DNA of 64,000 nucleotides, from contig CM022665.1 of the NCBI GenBank assembly GCA_012295275.1, forward strand, positions 7,428,976 to 7,492,975. The letters run 5' to 3'. Every line of letters starts with the position of its first letter. The stretch's first letter is position 1. This DNA comes from Chrysomallon squamiferum. Its lineage: Eukaryota; Mollusca; Gastropoda; Neomphalida; Peltospiridae. Shown here piece by piece: positions 16,101-59,776 of the stretch. The position numbers were made by a program, and so were the translations under genes. The notes below the pieces were generated by a model. It was not told where the DNA came from. It worked only from the letters and a program-made list of their open reading frames with translations, and made no database searches.

Positions 16101-18911
16101 TGAAAAAGAACTCTTTACCTGGGCTGTAAGTGACACTACTGATTGTTTATTCATTTGTGAATAAACATCATAGCTAAATACTTTACTTAGATGTAAGCAG
16201 AATTGATGTGAATTGGAAACTGTTTTACGGGTCTTTTTGGAAATGCTTTGTGGGAAATAAGAAAAGAAATTGTTAAATTTAAATTAATAAAAATGTTATA
16301 AATTTTTAGTTTTTTTGTTTTTCTGTTACATCTATTATGTTTCTTTTTATAGCTTTATTACAGAATCTGTTACAATTTGACATTTATTAACTTTGTTTAA
16401 TTATTCTTCACTCATTTTTTTGCATAATCTGACATAAAATTAGTTAAATATCAGTGATGTTAAAAAAAGAATGTGATCACAACAAAATATATTTAGATAT
16501 AAAGAAGTAAAATAGATTCATAAATGGATATATAACTATTTAATTTTACATTTACAACTTTTGAAAAAACATGATCTTTGTGGATGAAGCAAAGTTTATG
16601 GAAAGGTTATTTTTGAATGTTTGATTTTGTTCTATTTGACAGAATGTTCAGGGTGATACAGCTATTTCTGGACAATTAGGACATGGTGATGTTGCATCAT
16701 ATAAGGCTCCCAAAAGAGTTGATGCTTTGTTAGAAAATTCTGTGGAGCAGGTTTCCTGTGGTGAAGATTTTACACTCTGTGTTACAGGTTAGAGGTGTTC
16801 ATGTATTTGTACTTCCTTTGTGAACTACTGCATTAGAACATGTTTACATGTAAATATTATTATTATGCATTTCACATCATGAAATATAGAAAATATCAAA
16901 ACAGAGTGAAACCATAATGGTTACTGTGGGAAAATATCTTGCACTGATCTATTAATGTAATTAAAAAAATTTAATCTCTTATGTTTGTGAATTAAAATAC
17001 TGTTTTAATGGCAATTAAAAATTTGTTTTGAAATATCAGTATTTTTTTTACATTTAACAATAGTTTTATGTTTTCAGTCTGTATAGTCTTCTCTGTTCAT
17101 GTTACAACTAATGTCTGTCATTTGTTTTGCAGGGGGGGGTGTACATTTCACCTCTCTCTTCCTTCTACTGTTATATTCTTTGTTACAACAAAATATCAGT
17201 AAAGTGATTGTTTAATTTAAAAAAAAAAAATTTCACACTTTAATAATTTGTTCTTCAGTTTTATACATTTATATCGTACTTTTTTTTAGAATAAATGCTT
17301 TTTTTTGTTTTTTAAATAACAAATTTTCAGATGAGGGAGCTGTTTATGCTTTTGGTTCAGATTATTACGGCTGTCTTGGTTGCAGTGGTGAAGCAGATGA
17401 AGAAACATTATCACCTGTTCTGGTCCCATTCTTCACTGGCATCCCTGTGAAACAGGTTTCTTGTGGAGATGCACATGTAGCTGCTTTAACAAAATGTGGA
17501 AAGGTCTACACATGGGGATGTGGAGAGTTTGGTATGATGCTATTTATTATACATAGGAGTGATACGGTTAATGTAAAAATTTCAGCTTGTTTACATGTTT
17601 TGAACGGAGTTTTACTCTCAAAACCTATAACAGGAATTTGGGGTAAGTTTGTAAATAAATAGCATCAGTGACATGATATTATACAGTGAGTTATTTGTGT
17701 TTTGTGTCTGACCATCTATCCATGTTACGTCTGTTAACAGTTGTTTAATTAGAACTAATAACTTATTATTTCAATTACAGGAAGACTGGGCCTGAATTCT
17801 GAAGAGAGTTTTGATGTCCCACAAAGGGTTAGATATTATTTAATTTTTGCAAATTATTAATTTTAAATAATAGTAATAATAGTAGTGATAGTGGTAATGT
17901 TGGGTCTTGGTTTTGGTGGTAGTACTAGTAGTAGCAGGACTTGGAGTAGTAGTAACATCAGTAGTAGCAGTAGCAGCTGTAGTAGTAGGAGTAATAATTT
18001 TTGTATTAAACAATCAGTTAATTTATTTGGACCCAGTAGAAGCTTGTTATTAAAAATAATATATTCAGTTCTAATAATTTCCTGTTTGAACTGATTACAG
18101 GTGGCTATTCCTGGAAAACATGAAATAAAGCATGTTTGTGCAGCATCTGATGGAACTTTCTTAGTTTCTGTCAATGGACGACTTCTAGCCTGTGGTAGCA
18201 ATGAAGACAACAAACTTGGTTTTAACTCTAAGACTTCAGGTCTTAGGAAAAGGAAAAATCAGGTTGTCAATCATTTCTATTGTATGTTTTTGTAGTCTTT
18301 TGATTCCTGTTTCATTTTCAGATTTTAATGAATGAATATTTGTTTAATAACATTTTAACACATTTCAAAGTTAGTGCTTTTTAGGTATGAAGCTTTTGGG
18401 TTTTACTTTTTATTAATGATGATGTGAAAGACATAATCTGTTGTTGCTGATTCATAAGGTACAATTACTAATTTGTGGTAATATACCTTTTATATGCTCT
18501 TCTCAAAAATCTAAGCCATCAATTATAATTATAGTACCTTTGATACACCTAAGTGTTGCACGAAATAAAATGGAAATATTCTCTGAAAGCCTCAAACAAG
18601 ACAGAAACTTTGATCTGTGACAAGTTAATATCTTTCCAACTACCGAGATGGGTATTGCTATCTAATCACAAAAGTTAGAACTATAGTGGTAGACAGTACC
18701 CAATACATTGTACTAAATGGATGAAAACATGAAACAGTGCACTGGAGATTCTGTTATAACTCTGAGTACTGTAAAGCAATGACTACAGGTATAGGGGTAG
18801 TTGAAGGAGACTGTAAAAGAATAAACAAGTACTATAAGCCTTTATTGTAGATTGTTTCTTTGTTATAAGCAATCATTAATTTATTTTTATAGACTTAAAT
18901 ATGATTGCATG

Positions 18912-18952
<41 letters not shown>

Positions 18953-20584
18953 TTTAATGAAGAATAAATATGTTTATAAAGTTCTGTTATTTTTTGCAGA
19001 CTTATGACATTCCATGTAAATACACATTCACCACAGTGAAACCTCTAAATCAGTACCACATTGTCTCTGTAGCTGCTGGAAAAACACATGCTGCTGTTGT
19101 TGATTGTATGTTTTATAACTGTTTCATACTAGTGAAAAATTTCATTTTTTCAATTAGAATATTCAGATATATTTTATGGACATAAATACATATTTTGTAG
19201 TTGTTGCTATTTAAATGCTTCATCTTTTAAATTTTGTTGGTTTTTTGTACTCTTTCAGATTTAAAAATATAAATGGGTACATGTTCAGTCTTAAAAATTT
19301 AGCTGTATTCTGGCATTACTTCTCCCAGAACAAAAACACAAAGGAAAAAGACTCATAACATGGCGTTCTACTGAAATTAACCAAGAATTACATAAAATTA
19401 TGTATTTATAATAACTAGTCAATATTTTGTTTTAATTTTGCTGATATAATTAATATATCAAGCATGTGTCCTATAATATTTTGAATCATATATTGATATA
19501 GTTTACAAGTTAATCTAATCAATTCTTCCAGTGTATGGTTATTTATTTACATTTGGATCTAACAAGTTTGGACAGTTGGGTCTGGGAGACTTTAAAAGAC
19601 ATCAAACTGCCAGTCGTGTTGGAGGTGTTCTCGCTGGTCAGAGAGTAGAGAAAGTTGCTTGTGGTGATGGTTTCACTGTAGTTTCAACAACAGGTGTGTG
19701 AACATATACAGATAACATCATTTATACAGTACTGGCTCAGTGTCAGAACACATCTGATGTGGAGTGACACAGGATCTCTCCTCCTCAATACTGCCTTTGA
19801 GTGATTTAGCATACTAGCCTCAACTCAATGACTTACTTATCAAATACTGTTCTGTATCGTTTTTTGATAGGTGGAAGGTCCATATGAAAGGTTCTTTTTA
19901 GCCTGTTGAAAACACAAAGCCAATCATGTGGCCATAGAGGGATTGATATCTCTTGTTTTCAGGACTTTCCTTTTACCATATGTGTGACATCACATAACAA
20001 TTGGATAAAACATGTTTTAAACAATCAAATTAACTTGCAAATTATCTAAATAGCAAAGTACATTGTACTATTTAATCAACATGTTAAATCTGAGTCACTG
20101 TGTTAAATGTCATGCAAGATACCTTATATTTTATTACATTGAAATATATTTGAACACAGTCTTGTTATTGTTATTGTTGTTTTTTGAAATGAAGTAAAGT
20201 TAATAGCATTTGTTTATAAATACTGATATTTAAAGCTCATTTTGAGTTTATATGTGAAATCTCTTTATACTTATAAACATTTTGCATTATAATTGGTTAT
20301 TTTAATATCTAAATATCTAAATAATAAATATGACTACTAAGTTGGAAACAAATACAGTTTTTATAATTTAACTTTACAGAAAATCAAATTTATTCATTTG
20401 GAAATGGTGAGAGTGGTAGATTGGGCGCAGTGTTTGAACAAGGAAATGGACCTAACGGTCAGTGTACAGCCTGGCCAAGAGCTATATTTGGATCTCTTCA
20501 TCGTGTATCAGCAATTTCATGTCAACACTGGAATACTCTTCTTATTGCTGGTAACTTCCATCTTACAACTTATGAAATTAGTTC

Positions 20585-20637
<53 letters not shown>

Positions 20638-22329
20638 CATGCATTTTTTATTCACAGGACTGTATACTATCACAAACTTTTAACTAACTATTAAGATAAA
20701 TTTGTATTCATCTCAGATTTTATAATACATTATTGTTAGTTGATATTTTGTCCAAGGACTTTTATCTCAAGGGACTTTAGACTGAAGAGTTTTACCAGTT
20801 ATCATATATACATTCACACCATATGTGATGCTTAAGGGAACAAAATTGATAAAATGTCAGTAAATATCTATTACTTTGCAGAAAAGGTTTTGAATCAAAA
20901 AACACTGAAGACAAGAGTTTCATCTCCAAAATGTATGTATTCCTTGTTTCTATCACTGTTAGAAACATATGATAGGTGTTTCTTGTTACTAATTTTCTGA
21001 AAAAATGCTTTTGTTTTATATTGCTTTTAAAAACTTTGTTTCAGTTGAATGGGAAGTATACGTAGTCAGTTTTTGAAATAATGAAGTGTACCTGTGGTGT
21101 TATTATCAAATCTATAGTTTAGGCCAATACTGACAGCAACAGTTTACTTAATGAATATTAAAAAGCTTCTGTTCCATAAGTTTATCAAATTTCTGTCTTC
21201 TTTAGTATTTAATACAAGCTGTGAAAATGAAATCTCCATAAATTGCCATGACATATTAATTATACATTTTTGATTAGCACAAAGGAAATAAAACAATCAT
21301 TGTAACAATTCAAAACATTTGAATATTAATTGTCATTAGATGTCAAAACACTGGTCTTGTATGAGCAAAATATAGATATTCTCAAAGGCCTGAAAGTATA
21401 TAACACAGACTTTGATAAATCAGTTATGGGTAGTGTCTGGTACATGAAATGATCCAACAGGCACACCTAGGAAGATATAGCTTAGTGACTTTTCATGGTT
21501 TAAATCAGCCCCACCCAGTGAGCTAAAAGCAAAACACCACAAGCACATTTAATTAGTTTACAGGTATTAATAATAATGGTCTTTGCATTTCAAATGGAAA
21601 CATTCTTGTAGTTCAGTAAAATAACAAAATAACATGTAGAAAAAATACATTTAGATAATATCACGTAAGTAATTACTGCACAATTAAGGTGGACAATAAA
21701 TTGGAGATTTTGCTTTGGTTGCACATAATACAACTAACTGATGCTTAGCAATACACTGTAATTATAATATTTTGTTTCTAATAGGCAAGGCATGTATGCC
21801 AGGTAAGAAATTTAACATTTGATGACAGTTGCTGTTTTGCATATTTGGTTAGATTAAGGAGGTTTTTTTAATATTAAATATAGCCTAATCCATGCATGAA
21901 TAAACACAATCACAGACACACCAGAACCATAATTTGATATTGTTTTCTTAAATGTCCAGTTAACTCTGTCACATTTCATCATTATTTAATCACAAGAGAA
22001 TCTTTGGAAAAATAATTTGTGTTGACTGAACAAAAATAAATAATAACTGTAAATTCCATACACTTGTCTGTTTTCACTTGCATGAAATTAAAAGCTTCAC
22101 CCATACACCTAAAAATAATGAAAATATACATTTGAAACTGTTATTACTACTGATCCAACTTGATGTTTTTTATAAATAAGTTCAGGATTTTTTCATAAAT
22201 TTTTAATTTTTTATATTTTCATAAAAATTTTGACATTCACTGACATGACTTAAAAATTGTTAATTAAAAAATGGAAAAACTTTCATTGATAATATTGTCT
22301 TCTATTACTAAGTAGATTTATTCTCATAA

Positions 22330-31760: not shown

Positions 31761-31775
31761 ATGTCTGAATTATGA
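31761..31775 (+). promoter_or_regulatory. 4-codon uORF overlapping the IAP start
   Basis: ATGTCTGAATTATGA lies directly upstream; its stop overlaps the IAP ATG as ATGA (31772-31775). A possible acceptor (GTATTCAG, ending 31758) just upstream suggests that the 5'UTR exon begins here. If transcribed, it would allow termination-reinitiation control. Confidence 0.4.
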
Positions 31776-34700
31776 ACTTTGCACTAGATGAAGAACATCT
31801 TAAATCAGAAACTGCAAGATTACAAACATTCTATAACTGGCCACACTCTGCATCTCAAAACCCAGAAGTCCTTGCTAAAAATGGTTTTTATTACATTGGA
31901 CCTTCAGACCGAGTGAGATGTGTATTCTGTCGTGGCATTTTAAAAAGTTGGAGATCCTCAGATGATGTTGCTGCAGAACACAAGAAACACTTCCCTCGTT
32001 GTCCATTTGTGCTGAATCACAATGTCGATAACATTCCTTTAGACAGCGGAAGTAGAGGATTGCAGTTTTCAGAACTCTTAAACCAAAATTTTTCAGGTGA
32101 AATTTCACCTGTTCTGAAACAACCACGATACAGGCAGTATGTAGATCGATTGAAATCATTACAAGATTTACCCAGTTATGTAGTTCAAGACAGAGAGCTT
32201 TTAGCAACAGCTGGTTTCTTTTATACAGGTTTGTAATTTACTTGTTTGTAATTACCATGTAGTATGGTTTCTAAACTTTACTAGAAACACTGTATAGATG
32301 GAGAATAAACCAGTAACTTTTAAAAGTTACATTCCAGCTGATGATTAATTTGTATAAGATGAAAGTAAATAACACAAATAAATTAAACTGACACTCTATA
32401 TCTGGAGTAAATAAAAATGATAATTAGTACTAAGATCATCTTAAAGATGATATTTTTCTTCTGTAATTAATTTATGTTACAGGTATTTCTCTGGGCATAT
32501 ATAATTTTGTTTGTAATATTCAGTACATAAATAATTATTTATGATTTTGAGAATAATCTTTTTAGCATTACTTCTATATTACACTTATATATAAAAGTAA
32601 GCACTTCTGCTTATAAATGTCCTTAAATTCATTGTTTTTTGTCTTTTTTAATTTTATTAAAATAGTTTTCAATGTTGTATTGTTAGGACATGGTGATAGT
32701 GTGCGCTGTTTTGCTTGTGGAGGAACTCTTCGCAGCTGGGAAGAGTCTGATGACCCATGGATAGAACATGCTTGCTGGTTCCCTAGATGTCCATATCTTC
32801 TTCAAGAAAAAGGACAACAGTTTGTCACTGATATTCAGAGTAATTTTGTAGCCAATATTCAAAACAGACAGGTATCTGTTTATGTTTATCTGTTTATGTT
32901 TATCTGTTTAAGAGAACCAATAACTAGTAATATGTGATATCGGGGTCAGTTGTTTATTTTACAATCTAAACCTCCTTGCCCTCCAAAACAAAACAAATAA
33001 ATAAATAAATAATGATAATAATAATAATAATAATAATAATATTAATAAATTAAAAAAATACAAAAATACAAAAATACAAAAATTTTCATCACCCAGATGC
33101 CACCATTACATCATAGTCTGTGCAGTAATGTTTGAGGATTAGATATTTGTAGCTGGCATGTGCAAAACTATGTGAGTTGTTGAACACTGATAATTTGTTT
33201 TTAACTCAGAACAGTTACTCTGATTCATTTGAATTAAATTTGGATGCAGCTGTGTAAATGAAACAGAAAAGCGCAGTTCAAGAGATGTATCCGTCATTAA
33301 AAAAGGACCTCATTTCTTTGGCATAAAATAAAAATGAGGTGAATTACATTTTGATGTGTTTTAGCATAGAAGTGCACAATATGAGAATATATTTAAAATT
33401 ATAGTATTCTTTGTTATTTATCCTGACATTTTACAACGTACAAATAATTAAATAAAAAAAGAATGTTATTTAAATCTATGCTGAAAATGACATGTACATG
33501 TTGAAAATAATAAATTCTTTCACATTTTAATTATCTGAGTTATTTTTGTTTTTATGTTAGCCTGTTCAGTCCCCTCAAAGAGAAAGTCCTCAGCCAGTGA
33601 GAAGTGAGTATGAACATCATACTGATATTAATAATTTAATGTATTTTCAGATGCATACCAAAAAATAAACAAAGAAAAAAACAAAACAAAATGGAACATC
33701 CACTCTTCATTTGATCTAGTACAGTAGTAAACATTTCAGTTAAACTCTGTTGGTTTAGGTTCTGGCTTCCTTTGCACATTTGTGGGTGTGTGTGGGGGTA
33801 TGTGTGTGAGTGTGTGTGTGTGTTTTTACATGTATATATATTAAGAGAGAGACAGACAGATCCCTAAATTTTTAATCTAGAAAATTTGAATTTAAATGCA
33901 TTTTTACAAAGAGGTAAATAAAAATCAGTTTGTATAACTACATTTTCTAAATTGTGTTTTCCTAATTTTAGGACAGCGTAACAACAGACATTTACTTCCA
34001 TACATTCAAGCTGTGGTTGATATGGGTTATGCTTCTGATTTGGTGTTACAAGTCCTGCAGAAAGAGCAAAAGAAAGGTATGCACTTGTATCATATACACA
34101 ACCCAATTAAGACAGTTACAAGACTAAAACAGTATTTACTTACTGTTATATTTTAAGTGTACTAACTGCATAAAAAAAATATGGTAACTGTTTTGTATGT
34201 GAAAACACAGATGTGTCATCAGGCAGTTTTAAACACTGATATGTCCTTGAGCTATGTTCCTTTACAAGGCAGGGTATATATAAACAGAAAAAAGTTCTTG
34301 TAACTGAGAGTATTGTTAAGATGTGTCTGGCTTATCTTGATTTTATCAGATTATTTTCTTAGAATTTATACCTGTTTTAATCAAAATCTTATTTAATGAA
34401 TTTGTTACAGGGCATATTATTTTGAAAGCACTGGACTACTTAGCAGATCAGTTTCTGTACTTTCTCCGTTTTCTCCTGCTCTTGTATATTGCTGACTCAT
34501 TGTTTTCAGGAAATAACATTACAACATCTGAAGCTTTGTTGACTGCTGTTGAAGAACATATTGCACAGGCTCAAAATTCAAACAGTCCATTACTGGAAAA
34601 TAAAGGTAAATGCTGAATTAATCCTTTTAGTGTTAGGTGTGAAAACTTCTTTTTGTTATTGTTTTTAATTATACACGTTAATTAGACTCTTTAATGGAAC

Positions 34701-42456: not shown

Positions 42457-42609
42457 TTTCAAATGCTCATGAAGTGAAATATAATAATTGGAAATAAGAT
42501 TTTTCTTTTCAAATATTTCACCTTTTCATGAATTATTAAAGAGGCTATATCTATTTCTGACTATAATAAACAATGTATGATGGAAGAATGTGACTTGTGT
42601 TAAAAATAA

Positions 42610-45600
42610 TCAACTCTTTTCCACATGGTGAAACATGTGCGAATCGTAACCAGCCTGCAGATTGGCTCCCCTCATTACCTGTTGGCAAGTATATGCCTAG
42701 AAAAAGAAAATATACTCACATTAAAGACACATGACTGAAATAATGCTTACAAACAAAAAAGATTATCTTTTCAAAAATATATATAAATATTAAGAAATGA
42801 TTTCAGGTAGCCATGTAATATGTTTTTAAAACTTTTATTTACATGTTACAGACTGGAACCCAATTAAAACATTGCTTCTCTAACTCACTTGTGTGCAAGT
42901 ATGAGGGATAAAAAATATTTTCTAGTTTTAAAATTAATAAATATAATTTGAAAGAAAAATATATATGTCAACATGATTTTGGTTTTAGGTTACTTGTTTT
43001 GTTTATTTAATATTTTTTTATATATATATATTGACTGAAAATGAAATATATTAACTATCAATAACTTTATGTATATACCATCCCTAAACCATGTTTTCAT
43101 AGTCAAAAGAGATTAATGTTTTAATGATCACTCAGTGAAAGCACAGTTATTTAAGAGATACATTGGATATCAGTGATTCATACTTTCACTAGTAAATTTA
43201 TGTCCCATCTTGAAGGGTAGGATGACATATGTAATACCTACCGTATATACTTGTGTACAAGGCGACCTTATGTATAAGTCGATGTGTATTTTAAGACCAA
43301 AAATTGCGTCATTTTAGGTATTACTTGTGTATAAGTCGACTGTAGATTCCAGGCACCATCACTATTTTTAGACCAGTGTGACAGTGCCATGAAGGCCTAC
43401 ATTGTACGCCTACTGTAACATAACTTGCACAAGCTGTAACTTGCACGTGCAATTCAAAGTAAGATAATTTCGGAACCTCAGGAATATTTTTTTCTATCGA
43501 AACTCTGCTACAAGACACGCCCCCGATCCTATTCCTAGCGCGCTAATTGGCCGAGGCTTCGCGCACTTGGCAACCGACTAGAATAACAAATATGGCAAGA
43601 AGTTGAACTGATTTTTGTTGCAGAACGTTTATAGAAATTTAGTTTGTTTTCAATTTGTCGGTAGTGGATATTAATGACGATTGCAATATTATTTCACCAA
43701 ATTCTTTACAATTACACAAGTGAGTTTTGTTTATGAAATTAGGACCAATATTTAGTGCAGTTTGGCAGAGAAGTCTGCATTCCTAGATCATTGCAAGACG
43801 CCGTAAGGCATAACGCCGTACTGACGGTTTTCTCGCTTTAAAATGTATTTTTATGTCATTAAACGGAAGAATATCATGTTTTACATTCATATTTGGTTTT
43901 GTTATTTAATTTTTCAAAACATTTTATACGATAAAATTATATTTTTGAAAAGCTGAAAGACCGCGATTATTTTAGATGCATCCAGTAGCAAAAAATAGTC
44001 AAAATGGCGACTCTTCAGCAACAGCTACAAAAGCATTACCTATGTAAAAGTCGACCCCCAAAATATTACCTTAATATAGTCTCCCAAAAATTCGACTTAT
44101 ACACAAGTATATACGGTAACTGATATATGCTGTAAAAAACTCGTACTAAAAACTGAGTATGTCAAGTGTAAATTTGTATTTATCAAATGACTAAAAATGC
44201 TAATATTAATAATTAAGGTTGATTTTTTTAAAGTGAAAGAATTCAAAGCATAATATAAGGAATATCTAAAGAATGTGAACAATTAACTTTTGATACATTT
44301 GCCGTGATTTTTAACTCTGTTACAGTCACTGTTTCCATAATACTGATAGGTGGTAAACATTTATCACTTTTCAGCTCATTAATCTGTGTAAAACCTTTTC
44401 AGCTGGGTAGCTATGCCTACTAATAAAACTAATATAGCATGTAATTGTAGAAATTGTCCTTTGTCTATGAGAAAAAACAAAAAACATTTAACTATCTAAC
44501 TGGAGGGTAGTTATGTCGAGCACGATTTGGTTTCTAAGATTTTGTTAGCAAAGGTTAAATCTGGCAAACTAATGTCACAGTGTAGTGCTGAAGTTGAATT
44601 CCTTATGGAATAATATATTACTTTCAAAGATGAAAACTTGAATTCAGAGAAAATCAAAATATAATCTGTAAATAAACTGAAGAAGATATCAATTAAAAAC
44701 ACTGATAATGTTAACATCTGCCTACATCAGCTAAAGAAAATCAGTAAAGAACATATGTTAACAACAGAAAGAGATTTCATCTTTAAATTTCCCAAACATA
44801 CTCATCAGTGCAGTATTTACATTAATAGGAAATGCAAGCAGATGAACAAAATGAGGTGGTTTTATTTACTAAACGTCAGTAAAAATGGAAATATGCCATT
44901 ACCACAGAGAAATAATCAGGAAACAGGTACAAACCTTTCCTTGTAAAATTTGACAAAGCATGATTGTAGTTGACCCATTTATGTAAGCCATAGAATATTC
45001 TGGATATTCACTGAAATACACACCAGCACCATAGTAACCACTGTCTGTCTTAGCTTGGAACCCACGATCACCTGAAGACACAAACATTGATAAGTTACTA
45101 ACCTTTCCAATGAGTACTTGACACAGCATTAGTTGTGTGGCACCAGAAATATAATGCATTGAATAACTTGGATATTCACTGAAGTACACCCCACTGCCAT
45201 AGTTGTTCCCAGATTTCATGACAAAACCTGGATCTCCTAAAATCAAAATGTTGGTATATTAAATATGGAACATTTTAAAAAATGTGTTTTTGTTTTATTT
45301 TATTTTTTTTTTTTTTTTTTCCCAAATGCTGGTAATATGATGACAAAAGCAAAAAGATGGATGAAATCCAGTGTTAGTTATGGAAAGAAACTATTAGTTG
45401 AAAATACTATTAAACAACAGAATTTTTTAGTTATATATACAAACAGTCTATAATGTCGACAATGATGGTAAACTGATTTTAGCATTGTAAAGAGGTAGGT
45501 CGTATAATAAGTTTTCTGAGATAATGAATACCCAATACTTGCCCAGTTGTCTTTCAGAATAACAGAAAGTATGCTGAGTTACAGACCTATTTGTTTTGAT

Positions 45601-48600
45601 TGCCCAGTAAGCTGGTAAATATTAATGAATAAATTAAGAAAGAAAAAAAAAAAACAGTTAAAAAAACTGAAGTATTAAAAAGTATTTTCATTGCCTGTGT
45701 TCTTGTAATTCACCTTTTCTCAAAGAATTACATGACAGATGTCTGTTTTAAAGTCATACAAAGAATTACATGACATGTCTGTTTTAAAGTCAAAGAATTA
45801 CTTGATAGATGTTTGTTTTAAAGTTGTACAAAGCATTACATGTCAGATGTCTGTTATAAAATCATACAAAGAATTACATGACAGATATCTGTTTTTGAAG
45901 TTGTACAAAACGTAAGTAAAAAAAGAAGTTGAGATTAATTATAAGACCATGTAACAATTTTATTCACAAAGTTACTGGAATACAAATGCAATATCTTAAA
46001 GTTTCAAAATGCTAAAACTGTTGTAATGAATAAAAACTTGATTTTGAATTATGTGATGGTTCTTGAATGACATGTCGCTGTGACAAAGTGGACATGAATT
46101 TATACTATCACACATCAAGTCTATGTACAAGTACTACAATCTGATAATATCAAAAATACCAACTCAAAAGCATTGTTAGTAGAGCCATTCCAACGTTGAT
46201 TTTCTCAGAAGTTTTTGAAAATCACAACAAAGAAAAAATTCATTTTCATTCACAAAATACAACGCAAACATAAAACTGTGTGTTGACGATTTATACAGAT
46301 CTGATGATCAGAGACAAGATCAACTGATGGTGGTTTATCAGGTAATTTTGCAATGTGTTTGCATTAGAGTGTATTAGCCAGTCTTGGTAGTTGGGGACAG
46401 GAGGGGCACATAAAGCAAATAATATTATGTATATTTAAATACAGATGACTCGAGCACATTTTGGGGTGGTAATCAGGTATGGCAGTATACTTGGGTGTGT
46501 GTTCAAAAGAGGTTTAACAAACATATATAATCAAATATGCTTTTGTAGCCACCTTGATATCTTCCAACAATGCATTTTACTATATATATATAAATTTATG
46601 TCTGTCTGTGTAAGTGCATGTGTATTAAATAAACTGGTATGATACTGACAAATGTTTTGTGTTAGTTATTCATTAAAATTAAAATTAAGTACACTAATAT
46701 ACCTGGAGCTAAAAATCCTCCTTCACAGATTTTCTTAATGTTATTGGTGTTTGTTCCATGAAAAGCTAAGACTGGGTATGACATATCTTCACCTCTTGTT
46801 TTCTTCAGATTCTGCTGAGCAGCTCTATACATAATTATAAAAAAAACACAATAATGTTTTCTAAAATAAACTTGCTACTTTAAAGATACTCATGTAACAA
46901 AACAAATTTTTAATAATTTCCAGTAAGATTTTGATTTCTCTCAAATATGTTTTGAAAATGTTATCAATTAGTCTCAAAGGATCTGGGTCTTTCAATATAC
47001 AAGAAAACACTTAACTGTTGAAATCCAGTTGTGTGTTTTTTGCTGGAACTGGAATTGGACCAATTTTCTCTGATGGATTAATTAATATTTTTTTTATAAT
47101 GGTGAAACCAGATTGATATTTCAACCACTAAGGAACAATATTTGTATTTATCAGTACATGTTTTCATATTGTTTATCCCAATGTTATGATTAAATCTGTT
47201 GACCAATAAAACACAGATAAGATAGAATTTTTAATTTAAAACAAATATTGTTTTACAAATACTTGTGAAACCATATTACTTGCATCTTTTGGAATGGAAA
47301 TGTTCCAGATATTTTGGTAATGTTTTTGAAAAAGATATAACAAAAGTTATGCAACCTTTAAACCATTGTAATTGTGATTAATTTTTATTTTCTAGTAGAA
47401 TTGATAAAACATAATGAATGATTTATATTTTGTGAATCTTGGAGAAATAAAGAATATAAGTTATATCTACCTGAATTTCTTCATGAGAACTGGATTTACC
47501 ACATATTCAACCTTGTCAACACGATAGCTTTAAAACAAATACATTTTACAAAATGAAATGAATGAAAATATATTAGTAACAAAAATGATCCATATAATTA
47601 CAATTGGACATTTATGAATATAAAGTCTTCATAAAAAAAAAAAAAAATGTATATTATAATAATAATAATAAGCAGACAGATAAATAAATAAACAATTAGA
47701 ATAATGAATTTTTTTTTTTTTAAATATGTAAAGAAAGAAAAATACTTCATTTAACAACATGCTCAACATATTTAATTCAGACAGTATATGCATGTTTACA
47801 GATGAGAGAGGAAACCTTTAACAACTTTATAGTCAGCTACTTTTTTCAATTAACACCAAGAAATTTTCCAACATAAACCAGTCACTAGACACATCACTGA
47901 GAAGAATGCATCTGGAGATCTGTCACACCTTAGGTCAGTAGTCTCAAGCATTACGAAGAAAAAATAAATATTCATACTCACAAAGTGAACAGACTGAGTC
48001 CTACTTATAATTTAAGTTTATGAATATCATAAGATTACAATACTGACAATCCTTCATCTGAAATGCTTGGGACTGAAAGAATGTTTAAGATTTTGGGATA
48101 CAAGGATACAGCCTGAGAATAGGATCTAAGTCTAAACACAAATTCCATTTTTATTTTATATACAACTTACACAAACAGACTGCAGGATTTTGCATATATT
48201 ATTTTTAATGTTTTTAATGAAATAAAGTTAGTGTATGAAAACTGTAAGATATCACCATTTCAGATTTCAGACCTTTTCAGATTCTGGAATTTGAAACAAG
48301 TGAACCTCAACATGTACCAGGAAAAAAAAGTCAGTGGTGATACATACTGAGCTGATGATTCAAGCAGTCTAAGAAACTGAGACTCTGCTGTTCTGAAATG
48401 ATGTTCTTCTGCTGTGTTTTTGTGAGCTCTTTCTGCATGGAGACTAAAATAAACTGTTTTGTTTCCTGACAGAGCTTCTTTCTCTCCCTTTACCAGTTTT
48501 GACTGACCTGGTCCTTGCTGAAATAGTTAAAAATTAGTTGTCAAAGAATTATTCAAAAACAATAATTTTAACTGAAGTAACTTCGTTTATGTTATTTTAC

Positions 48601-50439
48601 TATTTTACTGTAAACATTTCTAGGTACCCAAAACATTTAATGGTAATTACCTTTTCACATCTGCTAATATTAATTTTTACATTTTTTCCACTTTGTGGAT
48701 ATTCCTCCATCTTCTTGAGGTCGACTTTATATAAACGCCCCTTGGGGTCTGTCACCTCCGTGAATCTCTCTTTAGTTTGATAAGCCTTTTCAAGCTTGGC
48801 ATTAATACCACGACTGAATGCCTGACTTTCACCGTGTCTGTCAATGTAGTACCACTGAACCAGATTAGCAACAACTTTGGCTTCTTGCTTTTTATCAGCA
48901 GCTGTTTTGATCTGTAAAAGTTTTTCTGAAATCTTCTCATAAGCCTTTAATACATCCTCTCTAACACCTGTAATTTTCACTAATTTGTTCTGAGACATGG
49001 ATAACTGAACTTTGCATTTCTTGGCAATTTCATCAACAGCTCTTTTCTGAAATCAGCAAAAACAAAATTTGTTATCGAAAAATTCAAGAAAATTAAAAAT
49101 AGAAATGCTCCCACCCCTATAAATGCATCCAAACTGAAAAACCCAGACTGAATTAAAAAAGCAAAAACACATAAAGAAGACATTAGTCTTTCTGTCTGTT
49201 CATATGTTATACTGGGTTGAGGAATAAGTCATTGCAGTTAAATTAAATTTAATCATTACATAGAAGAAAACTTAAGCTTAACTGATAACAAGATGTAATT
49301 TAATCAATAATGCATACTACGTTGTTATTTAACACTTCTTCCCAACAGTCAACAAGTTTTTTGATGCCTCTGGAACAAAATTTGAATCAATTATGAACCG
49401 CAATGACTTATTCCTCCACCCATTAGTTTGATCTTTAATTAATTACAATTTTTTATGACATGATGGATCTTCCAGTGTAACATCTTTTAATTCTAATATT
49501 CAAATACCCAGTGATAATTTGCAACTCAAAAATTAACTAACTTCTTCACTGGGTAAATCACCAAAGTTTCCACACAGATTTTCTGGTAATGTTTTGTCGT
49601 CAACAATCATTTTGCATTGTTCAATGAAAGCCTCTCTGGCTGCAGCTAAACCATGATCGCCTTCAGCATAAATAGCAATGACACATTCTTCACTCAGGGA
49701 CTGTTTCCAAGAATGTGAGGATCGCTTAAGCTTTACATCTCTGCAACCTAAAAATAAAATACAAAAAAAAAAAAAAAAAATTTAAAAATATTAATAATAA
49801 TAAATAGTTCTGTTGAAAATAGAGAAACATTAATAATTTATTAAGTTTTTAGTTTTTTTATGTGTTAAATAAACAAAGACAGAAGTTATGATTCTAACAC
49901 AAAAATGAGTAAAATGTTTGATAACCAAACTTTAAACGTAACAAAGAATGATTCTTTTGTTGATTGTTGTAAAAGGTAAATGAGTTTGGGATTAAATCTA
50001 TTGATTTAGTGCATAGGTGAAAAAGTACAGTTTGTGTACTCAAAAAGAAATGAAAATAATAATTTATAAACTGAATCTTTGGAATCAGTGATAGTTACAA
50101 CAATGAAAGCACTATTATATATATATATATATATATAATAAAGTAAATCAGTATATTATTACAACATTGCATGACCTATTTAGCCTACAAAATCACTGCT
50201 TATATTGTCAACACTAAGTAATAACAAAACATTTTACAGGCCAACCACCAATAAAATAAAATTGAACTTAGCTTTAGTGAACTTTACAGAATATACAATT
50301 AAAACTTGTTGAAAAATAATGTGTCAGTTTTACAGTGTACATCAGTGATATAAAGTCTGCCTCAGATATTACAATCACAGAATCAATTCTTCTTAATGAA
50401 TTCAACTGGCCAGCTGAAACCTATTTCAATCTTTAACAA

Positions 50440-50470
<31 letters not shown>

Positions 50471-53400
50471 TATCTAATAAATGTCATTTGATAATTTGCT
50501 TAAACATATATATATATATAATCAATTAACTTTTTTCTTGCCATACTATACTAATTTATTACTGAAAACAAAAGACTATTTTATTATTTTAAATGACATA
50601 AGCATTACCATGTCTGTGTCTAGAAGAATAATTTCTTTGTCCACTAAAGGCTGACTTGAAAGCAGGTATCATGTAGCCATGAAAGATTACCAGACGAATT
50701 TGTTTTAGACTGGAATACCGTTTAGAATCACTAAACTTCTTTATTGCCTTTGCTATTACATCTGCTAGCCTTTCAGCTGATCCCTTCTGACCACCTATGA
50801 GTAATTAAAACATGTATAAAGGTTGTTTTTTTTTTTAAATAACTGTTATAAAAAGACATTCAACATACTTCTTAAAGAGTCATGGTTATTTACTTTATTT
50901 TATTTTTTAACAGTCCTTTTTAAAATTATTTTATCTTCATTGGTAATTTTCCTACCATTTATCTCTTTTGTAAAGGAGAATTTAACACAGGCTTACTAAA
51001 TATTTGTGGTAATGTAAATAAAAGATTTTACTGGAAACTTGTTAAAATGTTCACCATAATTTGTTTTTTCCCATCAGATGGTGATACCCAAACTGGAAGT
51101 GAAGTATCTGATTTGCACAATTTTAAATACTAGATTTCATATTTTTTGCAATAAGAAAACATCTAATTGCCTTCAGCAGAGAATGCTCTCTACCTATTTT
51201 GATCTGTCACACTAATACATAGGATACATCAACTGTCAAGTAGTTACAGTATCGTCTGTATGATTCAACTAATAAAATATGTTATACTGTTAGGCTTGTT
51301 TCGTTTTTTTTATGTGATATCAATGTTCAAACACAAAAAATAAAAGAGTATGAAAGTATTTGCAATAATTACCTGTTCCAAGAGCAGGGATAGAAAGTGA
51401 AGCGATTCCTTGCTGATCTACCAGGTTGAGACCTTTTGTCAAGATTTTAAACCAACCATCATTATTTTTCTGTGCTTTAATGTGCAGTATGTATTGGCAG
51501 TTCAAATTGCCTGCTTCTGTCAACACAACTCCATTTGCTTTCATGTCTTCAACTAAAAAGAAAGAAATAATATGTTTTAACACAACTGTAAACACATATA
51601 CTGTAACCCTTAAACAAAGATATTTTTATGAAAAAACAACAACAATTATTTCAAGAATAATGATAAAGCAATTCATTATAGATTAGTATGTTCTAATACA
51701 ATTGATTAAATGCAGTTGAAAAACAAAAGCTGTAGAAACAACTGAAGAAACAGTTTTAGTATGTGTCAGATTATAAACTGTTGTGTCTATTGGAAGCACA
51801 ATGAAGACAGTGATTTGTTTTCATATTGCACTGCATTGTTTTTCATACAAAGAGATCAGACAGTCCACATTGTTATTTTAAACAAAAACAAAAATGTATT
51901 ATTTTTTTTTTTTATTAACATTGCTTAGTTGATACAAATAATATTTCATTTTAATTTTATTTCTTTATTTCTCCTTATTATTATTAAAAAATGTATTTAT
52001 TATGATTATTATTTTTATTGACTGCAATAATTAAATGATGAAATAAAAAAAAAAATTAAGTATTTTACTCACTGCGCTCTTCACAATAACTCTGCAGTTC
52101 TGGACCAGCTTTAGCCAGAATGGTTTTTGAAACTGCACCTGAAAACAGATACATGTTTTGTGAAGTACGTTTTGGTTAACATTCAAGACATTTAGACACT
52201 TTGTGAAAACTGTTTTATAAAGAGTGAACATAACTGACGTACAAAATAATGAGATATCTAAGTTGGTGTCGTTGGATTTATAACCCACCTATTTTGCTAT
52301 TCCAAATGAAGCTCATTAACCAATTTTCAAAATTATGGATTAGATTTTGTAAGATTAAAAATAACATATATGGTTTGGTGATAACAGTAGAACCTAAACT
52401 TACTTGCTCATTTTTCTCTCTGTGTCCCTCTGGCTTTATTTTTGTGTTATAAAACTTAAGAAGCTAAACAGGATGTCTAGATATGAATCTTAATTGGAAC
52501 AAAGTTAAAAAAAAAAAAATTAAAATAATTATTGGTGCTAATTTGTAATTATCTTTATCAATCCAGCTAGCTTGCTACTTTACTTATTAACATAATTAAA
52601 ATAATTAATTATAATCACCAGTGTTGAGATCTAGTGTACTGTTGGTACTGTTCACAATGCATTCAGTTTTTTCCAGAGTTATATCCCCTCGTACAATGTG
52701 CACTTTGATATTACCACACATGAACTGATCTACAAAAACATCATCAATCATTTAAAGTGGTTTTGTATTTTTGGCTGCAGTTAGAGTATATGACTAACAT
52801 ATAATCATCACATGATCAATATTCAGAATTTTCATATTTTACATCATTGTTAAAAACCAGATATAAATAATGTATTACCAATATATAAAAAAAGGATAGC
52901 TAGTCAACATTCTAGCAATATAAATTTTACTTAATACCTACCATGATTTGAGGAATGTCGTCCATTAGCTTGGGAATGTTTCACCTGCTTTGGTAAATCT
53001 TCTATCTCTGAATAACTATTTTCTTCAAAGATGTTTTTGAATGCCTGAAGAAAAGTCAATAAAATTAATACATAAATTTGACAATAATGTATAAAATAAA
53101 TTTATTAACTATAAATAAGAATAAAATTTCCTTTTTATATAATAAAACTATTTTTTGAAAGCGTATTTATTACACACTAAGCTGCTTTTTAATGTATTTA
53201 CATGTAAATGAAAAAATATTTGTATAATGAATGTTTTGGTGTAATTTCTAATAGTGACATTTACCAGTTCTTAAATCCATTTTCAATACAGATTATAAAA
53301 ATCTGCTTATTTAAACATTATTTAATAATTTCAGGCCTTTTTTATAATTATTAAATTTTGTTTTTTTTTTTTTTGATCTGCAGGTGGAATTATTGTTTTA

Positions 53401-53892
53401 TTCCAGAAGCAAGAATTTATAAACTGATACCAGACTGATAAACTGTTAACATGTATTAATTTTGTCAATCTTGGAAAAAACCAGTTCAGAGTAATGCACT
53501 CTGTAAAACTGTAATTAAAAAAAAAAATTAAAAATGAGTAATAAGTACTGTAATATTCCATTCAACAATAAACTATTTTAAGAAAACAAAAATGACTATA
53601 CCTGTAATACATCAGTATTCTGGGGATAAACAACACAAATAATATTCTTCACTGTTGATGATGGATTATTCTTAAAGTGTAGTTTCACAGCTTTTTGCAG
53701 AAGAGTTGCAGCAATGTCAGCAGGGAATCCAAGAAGTCTTCCAGTTCCAAGTGGTGGGAATGCAACAGAACTGAGCTGTTCCTTAGCAACCAGATCCAAA
53801 CACGAAGTTACAAACTCTCCTAAGATCTACAGCAATATTAATGTAATTATAATCTCTACAAAATATAGTGTGTTTGTGCTGTGATTTCTCTG

Positions 53893-53924
<32 letters not shown>

Positions 53925-54952
53925 CATGACTGTTTTTAAACTGACAAGAGATCAGAATATCCATCATAACACAATACAAATTTGAAATCAGTACTAAAAT
54001 TTATTTCAAGTTAAAATGTATTTGTGAAAAAACTGATAAAAATGTATCCATTTTTTTATAATTCACTGATTATTCTTATGTTTATTTATTCTGACAACCC
54101 TTTAATTGTCATTAAATTAACTGTATTAATAATTACCTATTTATCTGAATTAAATAAAAGTGTTTTAGTCAGAGGTAACAAATAATTTTTAAAAAGCCAC
54201 CTTTTGTGCTTGTCCTTTTTGGTCCCATTTATTCAAGCATCCAAAAAATATTTTCTGACGTGGCGGATAACTGGAGTCAACTACAGCAATATCTTCAAAA
54301 TCTAAACCATTTTTATATTTCTTATAGCATTCTCTTTGAAGTGCTTTTCCATATTTCTGAAGCAGAGATTTGGATACAGCATTGCCAGACAGATCAAAAT
54401 CCTGATTAATAGGGCTTACCAGAACATCAACCTAAAAAACAAAACAGTGAATTTTAATTTTCAAGTTAAATTAGCAGAATTATTTATTCTATATAATACA
54501 AGTTAATATTTTTTTTAAAATAAAATTGTTGTTTATCTAAATTGTTTTTTAAAATAAACAACAATTAACTCTGCTAAATTACATGTTCAGAATACTTGTT
54601 TTTAAATATAATAAGTTTTTGAGGAATCTCAGTTGTTAAAGAACAGAATGACTAAAATCATCATTATAAGAAATTATAAAGAACATTAACAGCTGATGAC
54701 AATTAGCTTATTTTTAAAAATAAATGAAGTTCTTGAATATAATTCATATCAGATGAATTTTTCTGAGACTATTTTATAAAATTAATTCAAATTAAAACAT
54801 CACATCAAATAATGCTGATCAACTAAACTGTAAAAATTTAACCTAATTGGAAAATGCAATATGGTTACGGCTTCATCTTTCTGATTTGTTTTATTTATTT
54901 GCTTATTTATTAGACTTTGATGTTTTCTTTTCAACAAGCTACTCTTTTCTTT

Positions 54953-54991
<39 letters not shown>

Positions 54992-56164
54992 ATTTTCACA
55001 TTACAATTTAAGTCAGTATAGAATATTGCATCAATATTATATTTATGTTGTGTATTAAAGCTTTATTTTTGTTTATTAACTTGTTAATACCTCCTGATCA
55101 GCAAGGTCTCCCTGAACTATTTCAACTACATCCTGCAGTTGTTCAGAAGAGTGATGCAGACCTTCAGTATCTGAATCATTTCCTGAAGTGAAAATATGAA
55201 GAATAATGTTTCTTTTTCACTAATGCATAAAAATACACTGACACATACTTGCTATTTCAGATAACATAATATAAAATATTGTGGCTAAATCAGTAAATGA
55301 AACAATGGAATATGAGAAAAGTGACATCAAAAAATGGAATTTTAACAAACATCACATGAAATGTAATCAGCTGTACTGATATGTTCAGGGACCAGTTTGT
55401 ACACTTTTTATCTCAACAATAACATAAAATACTATTTAGACTACAAACCTGTCAGCAGAAAGATTATGAGGTTTCTATGCACTGATTAAAAATTTTAAAA
55501 TCATTATTTGAAAATAAAAAAAATAATAAATGTATTTAAATGTAGCACTGAAACCAACCTGTGTCATCATCATCAGTAGAATCAGAATTCCCATCTAAGA
55601 TATTTTCATCTAACACATCAACAAATGCTTTGACAGTTTTCTTGTTGCTGTCACAAAAACAAACTTCTCTCAGTGTTTCTTCATTCTGATCTTCATCCCT
55701 GAATTCCTGCAAAGCTGTCACAATGACTTTCACTGCTTTGTTTGGTGGGTAGCCAAATATTCCTGAACTCAAAGCAGGAATTGCAAGTGATGTAAAATGC
55801 TGCTTGTTTGCTTCTTTGAGTATATTCACCACAGTGTTTTCCAGGTCTTTATCTTCAGAGTTGTTACCATCTTGCCATCTTGGTCCTACGGCATGAATAA
55901 CAGCTTTGCAAGGCAACTGACCAGCAGTGGAAGTATAAACATCACTGTCAGACAATGGTCCATTTTCACTTATGTATTGTTCACATTGGTTTTGAATTTC
56001 TGCACCACCTAGAACAGAAAAATAAAATATCAGATAACTATGAGAAAAAAGTATGCAGTAAAAATGTATTTTGCTTATCAGTAAATGTAACTGCATTTAT
56101 TTATCAAATAGCAAATCTGACATACTTCTGATTTCAATTTTATATGTATACTGATATTAATATA

Positions 56165-56227
<63 letters not shown>

Positions 56228-59200
56228 CCAGCATTATATTTCGTGCAATAAACATTTAAGAAACACATTTTTAATTTAATATATTATCATTTGGGAAATT
56301 ATTTTTAAAATAATTGATATCAAATCAAAATCAGGCTGGTTCTCAATCACAAAAAATTATGAAATGCATACTTTGCACATTACATACATACTTACAAACC
56401 TATACACCTGTCTACCCATCTACATACATATACATATATTATTTGCACACAACTACACACACACACAAATACATACATTCACACATATACAAACAGTACA
56501 TATATAATTACATACATACATACAGAAATATACAAAAAAAACCTCAGAAAACAAGCATACACACACAGATATATGCATACACACTTACAAACATATTCAT
56601 ACCTATACCTACTCTATACATCATATATACATCCTCAGATTTAAAAAGAAGTCAAAATTTTATGTAAAACCTTTCTGAACAATGTCACTGGCAATTCCTC
56701 CAGCATGATCCAGATTAACATTGGCTGCATTAACAATAGCATCCACTTCCTGAGTTGTGATATTTCCATGACAGACTCGCACAGTCTTATTTCCAATTGA
56801 CCAGGTTTTCTTCATATTTTCAGTTGAATCTGTATTTTCAGCAAATTCAGTTTCTGGCACTATAATACATTTCTTCTTCTTTTCAACAAGCATTATAGCA
56901 TCTTTTCCACATTCCTGAGTTAAAAGTTCTTTTAGTCCTGGCTGTTTTATCTTATATGTTTTACTGCTTACTTGGGATTCTAGTTTCCTAAGCTCATCGT
57001 CAGCTTTCTTAATTCCAGATGCTGTTCCAGAAATATACAAATCCTTATGCCCAAAAGAAATTTTTACTTTTTCCTCATACAAGTTATCTGCAATTGAATG
57101 TATTTTGTCTTGTTTGTGTTCCTTGAAATATTTATAAATTGGTTTAGGCAAGGAAAAGGTTTCCTTTTTAAAATGCTTCATGCTGAAGTAATCATTAATT
57201 TCAGTTTTAATATCATCTGCAATATCTTTTGTTGCAACGAGAGTAATTATGCCATTTTCTGATTCATCCATTAGTACTTTTCCTGCATATGTATCTCTCA
57301 GTGACTTATTCAGTTTGATCCACTCAGGTAAGCCAGAAAAATCACCTGGCACACGAATAGTTTTTTCAACAATGCTTTCTTCGATTACGTCTTGTGCTTT
57401 TTTTAAAACTTCATTATCTAAAGCATACACTGTCACCACATGTTCTTTAAAGTCAGCACAGCAATCCATCTTAGCTAGAATGTCCTCCAAATATGTTTGT
57501 GTTTCCTTTTCTTCTAACAGACTCAAATATTTCTTTTCCAAATTTACATCAGCCCTTAGGAAGCCGTCCAGATGTGTATGTACTTTCAGTTTTGCATCAG
57601 TGATGTCTGACCGATGACCTTCAAATTCTATTGTGTTCTGCTTGCAGTCATATCTGATTTTTAAATTGGGAAAGTCTCTCCTAAGTCTATGTTCATATTT
57701 TGATGAAAACAGCAACTTCATCTGATGTGCCTTGAGTTCCACAACATCTTTCTGAGTGAGATTTTTCACAAAGGTCTGAATTTTGTCCAAAATTGTTTGT
57801 ACTGCTTCCATTTCCCCAACAATGATCAAATCATTTTTCATTTTAAACACATTAACTTTTTGATTCAGTTCCTGAAGAGTCATCTTCAGTTCTTTGTTGA
57901 TTTGTGGATGAAGACTTGATTCTGTTGAAACACTTCTGCTAATTAGTCCATTTTTCTTAATGAAATCAAGAATCAGAGTGTTTGCATGTTTTATGAATGC
58001 TTCACTGTTTTCAGATGTCTCACATTCAACAAAAGGACGTACCTTTGTTCCTTCCATTGTTTCTACAACCAGTTTAGCATTTATTTGTTGCAATTCTTCC
58101 AGTAATTTTTTGTAATATTCCTCACTCCTTTGAAGAAATTTTAGGATATAGTAGTCAATGTCGACTGGAAATTTCTGTTTCATTTTAGTATCATTGTGAG
58201 TTCTCTGGAACTGCTGATGCAGATGAGAAGAACTAAGACAAGGGTAATATAGTTTCATCCCAATCTTTGATCCCTCTACTTTAACATTCAAAGATGGGTC
58301 ACAAGCCTTTTCTGCATCTGTAACATAGTAAAATATCACTTAGGGTAAAACATCTTTAAAATGATACAGAAAAACAAAACAGAAATATAATTCTGTTTCA
58401 TCAAATTAGCAGGTTAATTTATACATTTCATATAAACATTTTTCTTCATGTTTACAAAGTTTAAATTCACATTAGAAAATACAGAGATCTATATGCCTGA
58501 ACAAAAGAAATAAAAAACATGTTTTCAGTGAAATTGTAGTCTGCCGATTTAAGAGACAAAAACATCTATGCTGTATTTGCAATCACTTTATATAATTATT
58601 CTGGACTGAAATATTGAAATTTGAAAAGACAAGACAGTATTTCACCATGTAACTGTAACAAAATTTTTTTTTTGGACAAGTTCATTGCAGCTCAGATTTG
58701 TTTTGTTAGTTCTGTTTATAAAATGTATTTACTGCATAGTTATATTCTGAGATAAACTGATACTAACAAATTTGGCATTCAATTATTTCTTTGTTTTTAC
58801 TGCTTTTTCAGACTTAACCTAAACAAGTTTCATCTAAGGGTCTAACAATCTGCAATAGTCTTATACTTAAAAAAACACCTGAGTACATCATGAAATTCAG
58901 TATAATAATTTTAGTAAATAATTTGTTTTAACAAATGACCTCCAAGCTTTACATAACTCAACAGCTTAATCTAAGTCTAAATCTGGCATTGACTGTACAT
59001 TAATTTAAATACAAACACCAAACAGAAACAATTAAAATATACAAAGTTAAACAACCTTTGAAATTAGAAAAAAATACAACTGCTTCTCCAGTGCTGGGGA
59101 TTATATCAACTTTTTCCACATTGGCACCAATACCACGCTTTGGATTTTCAAGAGTATATTGAACCGCATCACTGGTGACATTAACAGGCAACCCGGAAAT

Positions 59201-59776
59201 TATCACAGATTTTGGTTTTTCAACTGGTGATATTCGCAGATAATTTCCTTCCACTTTTCTTTTTTGACATCCTTTTTCCAAACATTCCATATCTAAGTAA
59301 AAAAATGTATTAAAAAATGTATTCATGTATGTATGTTGCATAGGTGTGTGTGTGTGTGTGTGTGTGTGTGAAAAGACAATGAAATAACTTTCACAAGTCA
59401 TTTTACTTTTCTTTTCTTTTTTTTATCCCCTAAATATAGGAAGAAATGATGAATAAATGATGGAAAGGATTTTAGTTGAAGTCTACGGAGCCTAATAAAA
59501 CAGAAGAAGAGGGATTTTTTCATGATGGGACAAATTGTAGCAGTCTAAAGAAAGTTCACAACTAATTTTGTTCAAATCTATAAAGCTGTTTTCATTTAAT
59601 TAAAATTTAAAAGTGTAGCAGGACTTTTGAATGACCCTGTATTTTGGAACTGTCATATTATTTTTTAGCATTGAGTTTTCCTTTACAATACTGGTAATTA
59701 AGTACAACAAAAAATAACAAGCTCTTGATAATATTTATTTTATTTTATTATTAATTTTAATTTTAATATTTTATGA

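Follow-up and report, generated by a model that had tools for sequence, protein, structure and literature searches.

Exclusive exons and PARP14-type enzymes

According to the accessible portions of PMC7969005 and PMC5740500, the closest described arrangements are OGDH exons 4a/4b and the human clusters of <50 nt, in which tandem homologous exons shift the reading frame when included together and the donor lies near the branch point. The same portions give ~50 nt as the distance from donor to branch point that is needed for both to be bound at once, and name a frame-shift followed by decay as another safeguard of exclusive exons (PMC5740500, PMC7969005). The pair read here from the genome sequence is likewise tandem and homologous, but its whole interval is 31 nt, and what would be exchanged is the part of an ADP-ribosyltransferase with the catalytic Tyr and the donor (D-) loop. 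No report of alternative catalytic exons in a PARP appeared in titles or abstract openings among the matches listed in one open library, and the string "splic" is absent from the accessible part of a PARP14 review (PMC13224862). Mutually exclusive exons are known; their placement in the catalytic loop of a PARP14-type enzyme is probably new and unusual.

The window is a 64,000-nt stretch of the Chrysomallon squamiferum genome. Gene 1 runs along the (-) strand from ~60.6 kb, or from farther out, to 42.55 kb and is, by its predicted domains, a PARP14-type ADP-ribosyltransferase gene, as the earlier note had proposed. In an approximate joined protein the domains follow the order RRM, KH, three Macro, WWE and PARP, which is that of PARP14 (ARTD8). 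Matches over curated cut-offs in this protein were found for Macro (2.1e-54, three stretches), RRM_PARP14_3, KH_PARP14_3 and WWE, and also for PARP, at 50.1 bits in the form with exon A and 37.3 bits in the form with exon B. Four homologues (P0001, P0002, P0006 and P0007) matched exons along gene 1, leaving some exons unmatched, with 0 in-frame stops in any match.

Gene 1 differs from PARP14 in its duplicated loop exon, in a frame break in its last exon, and at the third triad position, which we take to be the Glu column of the GKEL tail. Human PARP14 has a hydrophobic third triad residue. The aligned residue is Glu in 69/69 homologues and in the shifted tail of gene 1, so that the hydrophobic residue of the PARP14 type was not found; a hydrophobic residue occupies this position in most mono-ART PARPs according to the accessible part of PMC9189837.

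Table 1. Features of gene 1 (positions in the window)
Feature	Position	Strand	Basis or detail
RRM exon (RRM_PARP14_3)	59060..59292	(-)	domain search, homologue match
Large exon, KH-like domains and start of Macro 1	56669..58317	(-)	domain search, homologue match
Macro-domain exon stretch	50610..56009	(-)	Macro 1 begins at end of preceding large exon
WWE-domain exon	48651..49046	(-)	domain search, homologue match
Upstream PARP exon (YRVDKVEYVVNPVLMKKF)	47470..47529, approximate	(-)	tblastn match to P0002, P0007
Upstream PARP exon, catalytic His (FHGT)	46703..46824	(-)	exits in phase 1; tblastn 46829-46701
Exon A	45103..45236	(-)	134 nt; acceptor ATTTTAG, donor AAG/GTTAGT (/ marks the exon end)
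A-B interval	45072..45102	(-)	31 nt, GT...AG (GTTAGT...TTCAG)
Exon B	44935..45071	(-)	137 nt; acceptor TTCAG, donor AAG/GTTTGT
Last PARP exon	42554..42696	(-)	DNA reading, paralogue comparison, homologue matches
Site of the 2 extra nt that paralogues 2 and 3 lack	42630..42645	(-)	DNA comparison and homologue frame changes

Two other features were seen in the introns around the pair. An element of ~880 bp at 43239-44118, in the intron after exon B, has 34-nt inverted ends that are 85% complementary and looks like a DNA transposon or MITE, and a 38-bp tandem array of 4.8 copies lies at 45721-45895 in the intron before exon A. Elsewhere in the window, the plus strand carries two BIR (inhibitor of apoptosis) exons at 31769-32937 and a set of open frames at 13529-20694, with an RCC1 repeat (17216-17662) and sub-threshold RCC1 and protein kinase matches, which we take to be perhaps a Nek8/9-like gene.

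Geometry, age and constraint of the exon pair

Exons A and B each enter in phase 1, leave in phase 0 and are bounded by GT-AG sites. Both carry the catalytic Tyr in GVYFSEY; exon A combines it with the D-loop KSGNN-YGSG and SMHY, and exon B with the D-loop KTDSGYYGAG and SMAY. The two are identical at 29/45 aligned residues and 83/135 nt (61%), and their BLOSUM62 local score of 151 is far above chance (maximum of 56 among 2000 shuffles). The coordinates, strand, phases, gap length and residue identity given in the earlier note were all reproduced, and its two statements about the frame hold: A joined to B, for which it gave a frame shift, runs into a stop codon, and retention of A-gap-B gives 302 nt in which the frame stays open. 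The open gap proves little, because ten codons are often free of stops. As motif matches only, the gap holds TAGTAAC, which starts at gap base 3, agrees with TNCTRAY at 6/7 positions and overlaps the exon A donor, and CTTAT, which fits yUnAy with its A at gap base 12.

Three marks of mutually exclusive exons are found together at this locus: the exons are adjacent and homologous with identical outer phases, joint inclusion is impossible or destructive (31-nt interval, stop), and both copies are constrained. This supports the earlier claim of a duplicated catalytic-loop exon whose geometry forbids A+B, and A and B are likely to be a mutually exclusive pair that exchanges the D-loop. The spliceosome would be unable to join A to B owing to steric crowding within 31 nt, and a joined product would contain a stop codon. 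With A-to-B joining blocked, transcripts would carry A or B; the possible outcomes are A, B or the 302-nt read-through.

The silent sites of the two exons are saturated. Between A and B, 82% of synonymous sites and 27% of non-synonymous sites differ (pS 0.82, pN 0.27), and by this comparison they are old, intact, divergent exon copies; a recent tandem or assembly duplication is ruled out by the saturation. It is hardly credible that an assembly or haplotype artefact made the second copy: the probable source assembly is long-read based and heterozygous, which would allow one, but the 61% nucleotide identity, the saturated silent sites and the single locus returned for A-gap-B by a DNA search of the 404.6-Mb genome all argue against it. 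The doubled assembly segment that the earlier note had warned of is not what we found.

Outside sequences comprised 88 proteins from protein searches, of which 69 homologues were aligned for conservation. Two paralogues, 2 (L015) and 3 (L016), occur on the contig of gene 1 a short way beyond the window, with one loop-exon copy each as far as seen. At the 15 columns that are at least 95% conserved in the 69 homologues, A and B each keep 15/15 residues, paralogue 2 keeps 14/15 and paralogue 3 keeps 10/15. At the 90% level (23 columns) B keeps 22/23 and A 20/23; all three misses of A fall in the D-loop (T, D and G). Neither exon looks dead on these counts. The loop exon of paralogue 3 reads GVYLSGY and, with 10/15 strongly conserved residues, may be decaying or specialised.

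Nine scans covered the flanking introns of gene 1 and the surroundings of paralogues 2 and 3. Nothing scored above the 95% shuffle level, neither as a further exon copy in either flanking intron of gene 1 nor as a remnant of the absent copy near paralogue 2 or 3; one scan for remnants fell just at that level (downstream intron of paralogue 2 against A, 35 vs 35).

A frame break in the last PARP exon

A comparison of the DNA of the three genes showed that the last exon of gene 1 exceeds those of paralogues 2 and 3 by two bases, near 42640. A frame change falls at the same site in 3/4 homologue matches (P0002, P0006 and P0007), and P0001 matched the tail frame only. Entered from A or B, the last exon reads AYTC...GYDSHMFHHVEKS, with an early stop, and the conserved tail HVSPCGKELIIF...YYSQK sits in another frame, the full conserved end being HVSPCGKELIIFNTSHILPSYIVYYSQK*. 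The protein with either exon ends in DSHMFHHVEKS, and the final strand and the tail Glu are lost as assembled; the Glu of GKEL is out of frame in gene 1, where the frame break precedes it. Because the next exon is two bases longer and reaches an early stop, neither isoform gives a complete catalytic domain as assembled, and the complete domain with its third triad position in frame that would mark a PARP14-type enzyme was not found. The earlier note holds for the gene type, the duplicated exon and the exclusion geometry; it had missed the frame-shifted next exon (42696-42554).

A DNA search of the whole assembly with the last exon returned gene 1 itself and paralogue 2, with no intact copy of the gene 1 exon that lacks the excess; paralogue 3 was found by protein. 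The assembly has 404,604,130 bases in 22 contigs. The scaly-foot snail genome consists, in the accessible text of PMC7142155, of 15 pseudo-chromosomes and seven unanchored contigs, derived from a 407.8-Mb error-corrected assembly before scaffolding that used nanopore and Illumina reads. This probable source assembly is nanopore-based and was polished with Racon and Pilon, and the heterozygosity is given as 1.38% (PMC7142155).

Read in its own frame, the tail still has the conserved ending of a PARP and stops at the usual place, and no other break was seen in the matched exons. For these reasons we favour the explanation that the two-base excess is a mistake of sequencing or assembly, or else an allele that is recent or not fixed; a disabling mutation in a dead gene is possible. 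Two splicing solutions were also considered. With donors 4 nt beyond the end of A or B, the tail would come into frame. GTNNGT is a normal donor consensus, and since the present donors have it and the shift would cost the conserved GYDSH, these donors are not favoured. Skipping both A and B also enters the tail frame, but the catalytic Tyr is lost.

Our preferred reading, with a probability of about 0.58, is that a PARP14-type gene carries the exon for its D-loop and catalytic Tyr in two old, diverged copies that are used singly. Were the two-base insertion real and common, gene 1 would instead be a recently disabled PARP (a pseudogene or pseudo-enzyme) and the pair the leftover of a former switch. 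We consider this rather unlikely: the insertion is present in an assembly that holds no intact copy of this exon, and cluster members may decay, given that paralogue 3 has lost conserved residues (10/15 kept), but no stop interrupts any exon match to the four homologues, the shifted tail remains conserved up to its stop, and the sequence probably derives from a heterozygous animal through a nanopore assembly with error correction. Less probable again is the use of a single copy, or of A-gap-B kept as one 302-nt exon, with the other copy a passenger. Such use is compatible with the open frame on retention and with outer splice sites that can pair, and both loops occur together in 0/82 homologues with the loop motif (of 88; proteins only). 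Set against it are the 15/15 conserved residues that A and B have each kept despite saturated silent sites, the GT-AG sites at both exons, and the disturbance of the fold that a two-loop protein would probably cause.

Origin of the pair and effect of the exchanged loop

Abalone (Haliotis) PARP14-like proteins belong to the same domain family, and their loops resemble exon A (MKSGNKYGSG or GN; P0001, P0003 and P0004) or exon B (AKTDTGYYGSG, AKTDAGYYGSG; P0002 and P0005), but one loop was seen in each protein and exon B falls outside the abalone B-type group. The D of TD-G is present in 65 of the 69 aligned homologues, and 3 have a gap at the gap column of exon A. The D-loop of A, one residue shorter, is a derived form that also occurs in the abalone A-type genes and paralogue 2; B has the common TD-G type. 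Exon A is identical to abalone P0001 and P0004 at 34/45 residues and to paralogue 2 at 25/45, and the loop exon of paralogue 3 is identical to B at 26/46 and to A at 22/45. Silent sites differ greatly between A and paralogue 2 (Ks ~1.4).

The loop-exon tree is built on 46 columns, its bootstrap had not settled, and genes 2 and 3 have long branches in it. It places A in one group with gene 2 and abalone P0001, P0003 and P0004 (96/82, starred); the groupings of A with abalone A-type alone (72/85) and with Patella added (78/92) are not starred. Exon B joins the Bulinus PARP-BRCT protein P0017 (98/82, starred), with the abalone B-type proteins elsewhere, and gene 3 falls with B in a weak group (60/75). 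A forced A+B clade costs 16.3 log units with a p-AU of 0.078 (46 columns, bootstrap not settled), so that copying within gene 1 is disfavoured, not rejected. In the flanking-exon tree the three local genes cluster together (98/91, starred), and neither abalone sort was rejected as their sister (p-AU 0.31 each). We read these data as a split of A from B that came before the divergence of the local genes 1-3; gene 2 would have retained an A-like copy and gene 3, with less certainty, a B-like one. Of the 60 PARP-domain matches listed across the genome, 32 fall on contig C10, several of these in long open frames, which points to a large PARP expansion.

Exon A might instead have been acquired through recombination with an A-type paralogue and not descend from an ancestral pair, an origin that would be compatible with alternative use. 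This is quite possible, with the odds somewhat against it. The A-type and B-type loops of abalone reside in separate proteins with different flanks, and the three local genes are close paralogues, as recombination would suggest; against it, no close A donor was found in the snail's own genome, and A is nearer to abalone P0001/P0004 than to paralogue 2. Any exchange of A would be old, given its Ks with paralogue 2.

We take the exchanged exon to encode the D-loop, the GVYF Tyr, and the nicotinamide-pocket residues Ser and Tyr, which fits alignments with PARP12, PARP14 and PARP4. The main difference between A and B is the D-loop. As a lead only, the PARP12 match is 30.3 bits for A against 18.5 for B, and PARP4 gives B a slight edge (24.0 vs 22.2 bits); the PARP14 match is near equal (24.9 and 23.9 bits). 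The accessible part of PMC9189837 states that the D-loop influences activity and that its conservation does not extend across PARP subfamilies. We infer that the A/B difference may alter substrate choice or activity, and its effect is likely to be on rate, mono/poly preference or target choice and not on/off. More doubtful, and advanced tentatively as one joint claim, is a splice-selected active-site switch in which one gene could use either D-loop type: A would be closer to the clade-3 mono-ART PARPs (PARP12-like) and B of the common TD-G type, and the switch would be ancestral in gastropods and later split into separate genes, as the A-type and B-type genes of abalone and paralogues 2 and 3 here.

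If transcripts use both exons, splicing would let an antiviral-type ADP-ribosyltransferase change the loop that lines its NAD+ pocket. With two natural versions of the loop in an otherwise shared protein, the role of the D-loop in activity could, if this is true, be tested cleanly, and the locus would be an example of a single pair of alternative exons that came to be spread over separate genes.
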